Shown piece after piece: positions 31,241 through 34,618 of a stretch of 35,111 bases of DNA. Each line of letters begins with the position of its first letter. Position 1 is the first letter of the stretch. The notes below the pieces were generated by a model. That model did not search any database and was not told where the DNA came from. It saw only the letters and a list, made by a program, of their open reading frames with translations. Source of the DNA: Candidatus Bathyarchaeota archaeon (GTDB lineage: Archaea > Thermoproteota > Bathyarchaeia > Bathyarchaeales > DTEX01); NCBI GenBank assembly GCA_003601835.1, contig PIYB01000008.1, forward strand, positions 1 through 35,111, in the 5' to 3' direction. The translations under genes were made by a program, and so were the position numbers.

Positions 31241-32466
31241 TTGAGCAAACTGGCTGTTAAAGGCGGCAAACCAGTGCGAACCAAACCTTATCCGAAATGG
31301 CCGATCTTCGACGAAAGAGAACTTGAAGCCCTCAAGGAAGTCTTATACAGCGGGGTTTGGGGCATCGGCGGGACAAAAAAGAAAGAGTTCGAAGAGAAGT
31401 TCGCTGCCTATCAAGATGCCAGATACGGCGTGGCTGTAACTAATGGCACTGCAGCTCTTGAAGTCGCGTTTAGAGCCACAGGCATCGGCATGGGAGATGA
31501 GGTTGTTATGCCTGCGTATATGTTTATGGCAACGGCATCCGCAGTTCTTTACGTGGGCACATTACCTGTTTTTGTTGACATAGACCCTGAAACCTTCACC
31601 ATAGACCCGGAAAAGATTGAAGACGCTATAACGGATAAGACGAAAGCTATTGTCCCGGTTCACATAGGCGGCTGCCCCGTTGACATGGATTCTATTCTCC
31701 GAACAGCAGAGAAACATGACCTTTTCATTGTGGAGGATGCTTGTCAAGCTTGGGGAACTGAATGGCGCGGCAGAAAGGTTGGAGCCTTAGGCGACATGGG
31801 AACCTTCAGTTTTCAGTCAAGTAAAAACATCACATCCGGTGAAGGCGGCATGGTCGTCACCAACGATAGAAAGCTCTACGAGCTTTGCTGGTCCTACCAT
31901 AATTGTGGACGAACCGTAGAAGGCGCCTGGTACCAGCATGACCTGTTAGGCACTAACTTGAGAATGACCGAGTTTCAAGCCGCAATACTGCTGGTTCAGC
32001 TAACTAGGTTAGAAGAAGAGACGAAAAGAAGAAACGAAAATGCCCGTTACCTTTCAAAGCGGCTGTCAGAGATCAACGGGGTTGAACCGTTGAAGAAAGA
32101 CCCAAGAGTAACCCGCCACGCTTATCATCTGTACATTTTCAAGTACGACGCTGAACAGTTCCGGGGTTTGCCTAAAGACCGGTTTGTTCAGGCGCTGCGG
32201 GCTGAGGGAATCCCATACAGTGGAGGATATAAGCCGCTTTACAAGGAAAAGTTCATGCTCAACCTTGTTAACACAGGTTCTTGGTTAGAGAATACGGAGA
32301 AAAGACGGATTACAGCCGCGTGATGCTTCCTGTCACAGAAAAAATGTGCTATGATGAAGCCGTTTGGTTCTATCAGTACATGTTGCTGGGGACAAAGGAA
32401 GATATGGACGACATTGTGGACGCTATTGTAAAGATTCAGGAACACGCGGATGAAATAGCATCTTAA
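31241..32466 (+). CDS. DegT/DnrJ/EryC1/StrS aminotransferase, frameshifted near its 3' end
   Basis: VTNGTAALEVAFRATGIGMGDEVVMPAYMFMATASA, VEDACQAWG, FSFQSSKNITSGEGG. C-terminus GEKTDYSRVMLPVTEKMCYDEAVWF continues in a different frame (to 32466). Confidence 0.88.
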
Positions 32467-32499: not shown

Positions 32500-33039
32500 C
32501 TAAGAGTAGACCGTGACTCCTCGAGCCTTTATCGGTTCAACTATGTTCGGTTGGCTAAGAGCTGAAACCAAAACGTACCCGATGACGCCGATAGCAACAA
32601 GGCTACTAGCGGTCACACTGATGACCATGGCTGCCCAGGGTTGCAGAGGAAAACCAAGGATATCCGGCGGCGGGACGAACATCCAAAGGTATCCACCTAC
32701 GACGGCGCCTACGATCACGGAGGCAAACACGCACCCAAGAAGCCTTCTCTTTCTAAGGGCAAAGATGACGAAGGTAGCTATGAAATTGGCGACGGAGCCG
32801 AAAACAATGTCCATAGGGTTTACTGCTCCGAAAGCGATCACGCCGCCCGCGGCGTTGCCGACGAAACATCCGATTGTAGCCCCTAAAACGATGGGCCACC
32901 CGAAAAGCGCTGCGAGCGGTAGCAGACAGTCCGCTATGCGGAGTTGAACTGGACCGAAGGACACAGAAGCGAGAAAAACGACGAGAACCGCGTACAGGCT
33001 TGCAAAAACAGCGGCGAGAGTTAGATCTTTCGTGTTCAT
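32500..33039 (-). CDS. ECF transporter S component, QueT-like
   Basis: FGPVQLRIADCLLPLAALFGWPIVLGATIGCFVGNAAGG, six hydrophobic segments. Confidence 0.82.
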   Translation of the reverse strand: MNTKDLTLAAVFASLYAVLVVFLASVSFGPVQLRIADCLLPLAALFGWPIVLGATIGCFVGNAAGGVIAFGAVNPMDIVFGSVANFIATFVIFALRKRRLLGCVFASVIVGAVVGGYLWMFVPPPDILGFPLQPWAAMVISVTASSLVAIGVIGYVLVSALSQPNIVEPIKARGVTVYS

Positions 33040-33043
33040 TCTT

Positions 33044-33110
33044 TCTTTTCACCTCCTACTCCGGGGTTTATAGGGCGGAACGGGTGGAGGTGACCCCACT
33101 CACCCGCCTT
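33044..33110 (-). promoter_or_regulatory. Candidate structured leader with Shine-Dalgarno/anti-SD pair upstream of the QueT-like gene
   Basis: Hairpin CGGGTG...CACCCG (33106-33081 on the minus strand), internal CACCTCC complementary to the SD GGAGGTG just before ATG 33039. Confidence 0.4.
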
Positions 33111-33251
33111 GACAAAACAGAATCCATAGCACGTCTAATAAAAGTTTCGTGGATGCTGTTCTTAGGTCATTGTTACGGTTTATTTTCTGGAATATTTAAG
33201 AACACAAAAAAGGGACAGAGGAACAGCATTCTGTTCTTCTTTGTAAGTTCG

Positions 33252-33632
33252 CTACTCTATCTTAAGTTCGGTGCTTTTTTCGACGCATTCCTTGTGGGTT
33301 CTAAGCACTTCTTCAACTATTCCCTTAAGCCGTTCCTTCGGCTGGAAACCTGTCGCGGCGTCAACAGGTCTACCTGCGCAGAAGAATACCAATGTAGGGG
33401 TACCCATGACACCGAACTTCAAAGCTAAGTATTGGTTTTCGCGGCTGGCTAAGACGTTCATACTGGCAAATTTGGCCTTTCCTTTGTATTCTTCAGCGAC
33501 TTCTTCATATACCGGTGCAAGCCTTAGACACCACGGACACTTTTCATGCCAAAAATCGACCACAACCAGCCTGTCGGATTCTAAAACTTCCTTTTTCCAG
33601 TCTTCGGCGTTAATTTCCACGAGACTGCTCAA
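33252..33632 (-). CDS. Thioredoxin-fold protein with CPWC active site
   Basis: VVVDFWHEKCPWCLRLAPVYEEVA, GVMGTPTLVFF. Confidence 0.92.
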   Translation of the reverse strand: MSSLVEINAEDWKKEVLESDRLVVVDFWHEKCPWCLRLAPVYEEVAEEYKGKAKFASMNVLASRENQYLALKFGVMGTPTLVFFCAGRPVDAATGFQPKERLKGIVEEVLRTHKECVEKSTELKIE

Positions 33633-33782
33633 ATTGAGCCAACTTACTTGTGCACGGCATGTATGTTAACCAAGCTATTTAAGGAATCACGCCGAAGAAC
33701 AGCCACAAGTACCGGCGGCCGGTTTTGCGACCGACCGGAGGAGCCGTACATCTATTAAGCACGAAACTATCACTGAAAACTA

Positions 33783-34618
33783 TGGAAATCATTGAACAGT
33801 TGAAACAGAAGGTTTATTTTGTTGTCGATGAGGTAGAATCAAGAAGCGTCGGAATAGCCTTTTCTGGAGGCGTTGACAGCTCACTGTTGGCCAAAGCCTG
33901 CAAAAACATGGGCAAGAATGCCACATTATTGACGGTCAGCTTTTCCAACAGAAGAGATATAGAAATCTCGAAAGCAGTGTCCGACGTGTTGGGCCTTAAT
34001 CTGCTGAGCGATTTAGTCAGCCTAGGAGAACTGGAGGAAGGACTGAAGACTGTTTTGAGAACAATAGAATTCGATAGGCTTGTCAGACTGGAAAACTGCG
34101 TCTGTTTCTACTATGTTTTTAGGCTGGCTTCCGAAAACCAGTTGAAAACCGTTCTTTCAGCCAACGGATTAGATGAACTCTTTTGTGGATACCACGTTTA
34201 CAGAAGCCACTACGGCGATGAAACCGCTATGAAGAATCTTATGGAAACACTTGTTGAAACTGCGAAAAACGACAAAAAAGAAATGGACAAGCTTTCAGCC
34301 CTGTTTCGCGTCAACTATGTCACACCCTTTCTTTCAGACGAATTCGTGGACTTCGCCATGAAAATCCCTTTAAACCTCAAAATAACGGGAAAGGATGACG
34401 ACTTAAGAAAACACGTCTTAAGGAAGACAGCCTTAGAAATCGGTGTGCCCAGAGAGGCGGCAATGAGACCGAAGAAGGCTTTTCAATACAGTTCCGGCGT
34501 GCACAAAGCCATCACAAAATTAGCCAAACAAAAGGGTTTCACTAAACAAAAAGCAAAGCACGCCGGGTTCCGCAGCAGCATAGAAGCCTACATAAACAGT
34601 TTGCAGTCTTTTCTTTAG
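33783..34618 (+). CDS. Asparagine synthase-like PP-loop ATPase lacking glutaminase domain
   Basis: GIAFSGGVDSSLLAKAC, LSANGLDELFCGYHVYRS, VNYVTPFLSDEFVDFAMKIPLNLK, RKTALEIGVP. Confidence 0.85.

Follow-up and report, generated by a model that had tools for sequence, protein, structure and literature searches.

Does the short interval in front of the queT gene of this Bathyarchaeota archaeon encode an RNA that controls the gene, and what might such an RNA sense? The window, i.e. the whole stretch of 35,111 nucleotides that was analysed, carries on its minus strand (32500-33039) a gene for an ECF-type S component of the 7-deazaguanine uptake family, identified as QueT by its Pfam match (PF06177, E = 2.4e-27); QueT was found in 56 of 61 relatives. 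The original prediction had placed a structured leader in front of a QueT-like gene, and both the sequence, on the minus strand, and the identity of the gene were confirmed. The leader is about 60 nt long (33108-33050, minus strand). A thioredoxin-like gene located upstream on the same strand ends at 33252, so that the leader has an intergenic space of its own, with a TATA-like box at 33144-33135.

Two observations concern the surroundings of the gene. A 297-residue Asn_synthase/PP-loop protein (33725-34618, plus strand) is the divergent neighbour of queT; weak PP-loop matches to the QueC model were also seen near queT, on the opposite strand, in three other genomes (G006, G009 and G013), and this pairing may be conserved across genomes. 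The plus-strand ORF of a DegT/DnrJ aminotransferase (31241-32323) ends early while the sequence beyond seems to continue the protein in another frame, which suggests a possible frameshift.

Conservation of the leader in archaea

Among the 30 queT leaders printed, 24 shared a block of the form GGCGGGTGAGTGG-n-CCTCCACCCGTTCCGCC-n-AAACCCCGG-n-GGAGGTG, which ends a few bases 5' of the start codon. A covariance model built from relatives of the source genome recovered the source copy at 3.3e-19 and, within the class of the source, detected the element in 192 of 260 genomes, mostly as one copy per genome and with E-values down to 2e-20. Across the phylum, 80 of the 400 genomes searched had it, 20 of these 80 belonging to other classes; with a wider model it turned up in 10 of 231 genomes from Asgard archaea and in 26 of 251 from Nitrososphaeria. 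The named genomes returned by a pattern scan comprised Bathyarchaeota, Methanomethylicota, Nitrososphaerota/Thaumarchaeota, an Asgard group archaeon, Njordarchaeum and Odinarchaeia. Bacterial matches to the same pattern (Methylobacterium, Phaeobacter, Acidobacteriaceae and others) were discarded as chance, given their coding-like flanks, the lack of strand pairing and the lack of QueT downstream. Some queT leaders lack the motif, namely L029 and L030 (G002, G016) from one genus within the source's own family. Folding energy of the single source leader was ordinary (z = -0.64); single-sequence folding was thus uninformative, and the evidence for the element is covariation rather than stability. 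Comparative sequence analysis indicates that the queT leader is a real and conserved cis-regulatory RNA, far beyond chance expectation.

A pseudoknot that embeds the Shine-Dalgarno sequence

The conserved fold is predicted to be an H-type pseudoknot, in which P1, loop 1, the pseudoknot strand, loop 2, the second strand of P1, loop 3 and the Shine-Dalgarno sequence follow each other on the minus strand. The 5' strand of P1 (GGCGG, 33104-33108) pairs with its 3' strand (CCGCC, 33074-33078), and the pseudoknot strand CACCTCC (33086-33092) is, as originally noted, the exact reverse complement of the Shine-Dalgarno sequence GGAGGTG (33050-33056). In the P1 consensus, NGCGG/CCGCN', the outer pair takes all four Watson-Crick types and the inner pair swaps G-C for C-G: the 108 distinct parsed leaders had GC, AT, TA, CG or a wobble at the outer position, with GC or CG at the inner one. 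The parser demanded four of the five P1 pairs, which biases the percentage paired and leaves the variety of pair types unbiased. Pairs were counted on a gap-free alignment (A6) of 25 real leaders; alignments A3 and A5, in which short 5' strands were misplaced, did not enter the counts, and two rows of A5, one of them misaligned and the other carrying an edited linker, were left out of A6. In this alignment P1 and the loop/Shine-Dalgarno helix had standard pairs in 99.6% of cells and double-sided changes in 10 cells (0 of 500 shuffles), the loop/Shine-Dalgarno helix included CG to UA changes, and the score collapsed when the helix partners were shifted by 1-3 columns.

The original prediction had made conservation of the CACCTCC/GGAGGTG pairing in orthologous leaders decisive, and there the two strands covary. 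They do so in length (CCTCCC with GGGAGG, CCTCC with GGAGG) as well as in sequence (CCTCCT/AGGAGG, CATCTCC/GGAGATG, GCTCCGT/ACGGAGC, CCTCGCA/TGCGAGG), and pairing is kept in one leader devoid of any Shine-Dalgarno sequence (TTTCCGA with TCGGAAA). Loops bound their own tails at -12.4 kcal/mol compared to -10.6 kcal/mol for permuted tails, and none of 10,000 permutations was as good; for the 25 leaders with a tail lacking GGAGG, the values were -10.8 and -8.0 (0 of 10,000). Permuting tails leaves relatedness in, but the pseudoknot changes nonetheless span lineages and include changes of length. Minimal arcS-type leaders (L309, L343) showed weak pairing with their own Shine-Dalgarno region. Asgard copies (L315-L320) apparently have a longer P1 (e.g. 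GAGCGG/CCGCTC) together with the CCTCGCA/TGCGAGG strands, and would form a distinct subgroup.

Other pairings fared less well. The 6-bp hairpin CGGGTG/CACCCG, at first taken for the core of the structure, is present in the source sequence but shows no compensatory change and is not the conserved fold: the flip of P1 to GGCGC/GCGCC disrupts it, with eight C-C mismatches at pair 3 and eleven A-C mismatches at pair 6, and GGCGG/CCGCC is the conserved stem in its place. Since P1 and the loop/Shine-Dalgarno helix covary while this hairpin does not compensate, the fold is best described as an H-type pseudoknot. A GGGG/CCCC match likewise exists in the source, but the pairing is not conserved: many relatives have loops without GGGG. 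An inner GTGG/CCAC stem (model R1) was rejected, being lost in leaders such as AGTAACTCCCAC. The hairpin and the Shine-Dalgarno pairing had moreover been thought mutually exclusive, whereas the conserved stem and that pairing are compatible within one pseudoknot.

The position of the promoter bears on whether the element is transcribed. The 190 leaders examined had their peak of A+T content and of TATA-like hexamers at -36 to -28 from the start of P1, about 31 nt upstream, which agrees with the upstream TATA-like box proposed originally and found here as CTTTTATTAG. With the usual archaeal spacing, transcription should start some 26 nt past the centre of the TATA box, at 33110-33116, or roughly 5 nt before P1, which would put P1 at the start of the transcript. 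The conserved TATA position and the RNA covariation together imply that the element probably lies inside the mRNA leader. A competing reading of the original prediction took the internal CTATAAAC for the TATA box. Its four bases CTAT are replaced by ATAA, TTAC, GAAC or TAAT in relatives and only AAA[C/T]CCCGG is kept, so that CTATAAAC is not the promoter; the AT-rich box lies at about -31. That reading belongs with a DNA operator, in which a repressor would bind the repeated GC motif and CTATAAAC would serve as promoter. Closeness to the start codon and the GC-rich inverted repeat fit such an operator, but compensatory changes that are strand-specific and extend to the loop/Shine-Dalgarno helix, together with a TATA box fixed upstream and an unconserved CTAT, make it hardly tenable.

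Alignment and leader table agree on loop 1 (GTGAGTGGGGT, 33093-33103), within which GTGAGTGG is conserved. Loop 2 (ACCCGTT, 33079-33085) is near-invariant: among 196 parsed leaders, it reads ACCCGTT in 126, ATCCGTT in 18 and ACCCGAT in 10. Loop 3 (CTATAAACCCCGGAGTA, 33057-33073) contains the conserved AAACCCCGG at 33061-33069, and AAA[C/T/A]CCCGG was present in 180 of the 196; the loop is thus a candidate part of the ligand pocket or of a triplex. A constitutive translational attenuator or an RNA thermometer, working without ligand, would also sequester the Shine-Dalgarno sequence. We consider such a device very unlikely, because a thermometer gives no reason to conserve near-invariant unpaired loops (GTGAGTGG, ACCCGTT, AAACCCCGG) and because the element is associated with the genes of one pathway.

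Downstream genes and probable ligand

Of 89 class and phylum copies of the element that were checked, 86 lie before QueT, one before QueC and two before a membrane protein without Pfam family. QueE, too, lies behind the motif in Nitrososphaeria and relatives, identified by similarity at seven loci and judged by sequence at two others (L304, L336); NCBIfam QueE models matched all three of the proteins tried, though below the strict cut-offs of the models. Genome G590 harbours three copies: queT follows one of them and queE the other two, with queC as the next gene in one of the two queE cases. A short ArcS-like protein and, after it, a RaSEA-like radical SAM protein are encoded behind the motif in two genomes; at one such locus (L205) NF040592 and TIGR01210 matched at 2.1e-15 and 9.7e-13, both below cut-off. 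The regulon thus covers preQ0 uptake, synthesis and use, with mostly queT and also queE, queC and arcS-like/RaSEA-like pairs. As judged from their sequences, QueT, QueC, QueE and the ArcS-like and RaSEA-like proteins place the element before genes of the queuosine/archaeosine pathway, as for a 7-deazaguanine riboswitch.

The gene content of 41 relatives was examined. TGT was present in 40 and true QueC in 7, and in five of these seven (G001, G032, G034, G035, G038) queC directly follows a queT that the motif precedes; QueF was found in none, and none had a RaSEA match above the curated cut-off. Nearly all of them thus have an archaeal TGT, most are without QueC and all without QueF, a salvage-type pathway. 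The source genome, of 85% completeness, has TGT and no true QueC, which suggests that the source organism salvages a 7-deazaguanine.

Archaeal TGT uses preQ0 as substrate. As preQ0 is also the product of QueC, it is the most economical ligand. Another ligand of the same switch, i.e. preQ1, queuine or another deazaguanine, is possible if doubtful. The QueT/QrtT proteins that have been characterised in bacteria import either preQ1 or preQ1 together with queuine and Q (PMC11130926), and the known riboswitches before queT sense preQ1 (PMC11625349); we counted these specificities against preQ0 (PMC11130926, PMC11625349). In the other direction, none of the 41 relatives has QueF, the enzyme that makes preQ1, and the regulon holds queC and queE, which make preQ0, as well as arcS-like/RaSEA-like genes acting on preQ0-tRNA. 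Nor need the sensor be bound by a metabolite at all: a regulatory protein of the pathway, such as TGT or an ArcS-type protein, could bind the pseudoknot and stabilise Shine-Dalgarno sequestration. Autoregulatory pseudoknot leaders that bind proteins exist, and TGT is nearly universal in these genomes. We find this improbable, the leader being absent before tgt in the loci examined, while metabolite aptamers typically have large invariant loops within a small total size, here about 60 nt, and stand before genes for transport and biosynthesis.

We therefore return to a riboswitch that most likely binds preQ0. Computation established how the leader folds, that this fold is conserved, that it pairs with the Shine-Dalgarno sequence, and to which pathway the genes behind it belong; a widespread, covarying pseudoknot that locks the Shine-Dalgarno sequence in front of preQ0-pathway genes is very probably an undescribed archaeal riboswitch. 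We infer which ligand it is, that it binds directly and that the bound state is OFF. Transcription would begin just upstream of P1, whose strands (GGCGG/CCGCC) would fold in the nascent RNA and present the loop strand CACCTCC as a mimic of the anti-Shine-Dalgarno sequence. With a 7-deazaguanine, most likely preQ0, held in a pocket formed by the conserved loops GTGAGTGG, ACCCGTT and AAACCCCGG, CACCTCC would pair with GGAGGTG and close the H-type pseudoknot; the ribosome would be excluded and QueT not made. When the ligand is missing, the pseudoknot would open and the transporter be made. In our best reading, the queT leader, a small cis-regulatory RNA, belongs to a new archaeal riboswitch class for 7-deazaguanines, probably for preQ0, which would block translation through Shine-Dalgarno sequestration.

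Relation to preQ1 riboswitches and wider implications

The RNA matches no Rfam family, and it belongs to none of the known preQ1 classes, as originally supposed: no gathering-level match to RF00522, RF01054 or RF02680 was obtained in the source window or in 20 related loci, and these families left the queT leader unmatched even at E = 10. The closest likeness is to preQ1-I (RF00522), especially type III, also a small H-type pseudoknot with a P1 whose loop pairs with the 3' tail/Shine-Dalgarno sequence, a translational OFF switch with regulons made of queCDEF, queT and yhhQ (PMC11625349). In the archaeal RNA the pairing of the P1-hairpin loop with the tail is supported by covariation in both helices, whereas its loop 3 (AAACCCCGG) is not A-rich, the sequences of loops 1 and 2 differ, and its hosts are archaea. 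Directly before the P1 3' strand, preQ1-I has UC (type I) or AC (type II) (PMC11625349), whereas most parsed archaeal leaders have UU or AU. The RNA thus shares topology and regulon with translational preQ1-I switches, but its sequence places it outside that class. PreQ1-II (RF01054, COG4708 RNA) also lies before queT and builds the Shine-Dalgarno sequence into its fold; it is confined to Bacillota and folds with four pairings, among them an additional hairpin (HLout type) (PMC11625349), compared to two helices in the archaeal RNA. PreQ1-III (RF02680) shares the location before queT, but its expression platform is far from the pocket, it comes from Ruminococcaceae and metagenomes (PMC11625349), and the archaeal RNA has no sequence match to it.

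A 2024 review of the three preQ1 classes makes no mention of archaea (PMC11625349), and a search of open-access journal papers found no earlier description of the RNA. We consider it likely that Bathyarchaeia, Nitrososphaeria, Methanomethylicia and Asgard archaea share a new, ancient and widespread class that senses preQ0 or another base of the archaeosine pathway and sets its uptake, synthesis and use. To our knowledge, few riboswitch classes are known from archaea. If the reading is true, a covarying pseudoknot embedding the Shine-Dalgarno sequence across archaeal classes and Asgard would mean that RNA sensing of 7-deazaguanines is very old or was invented repeatedly, and Bathyarchaeia would be marked as salvagers of tRNA base precursors.

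A family of membrane proteins that has yet to be characterised also emerges from the finding. At L099/L328, L115, L228/L301 and L324, which belong to Nitrososphaeria and to a single member of the class, the motif precedes a membrane protein of 229-242 residues that resembles an ECF S component; the three motif-associated proteins tested (L099, L115, L228) had no significant Pfam family. We regard this protein as a candidate new 7-deazaguanine transporter.
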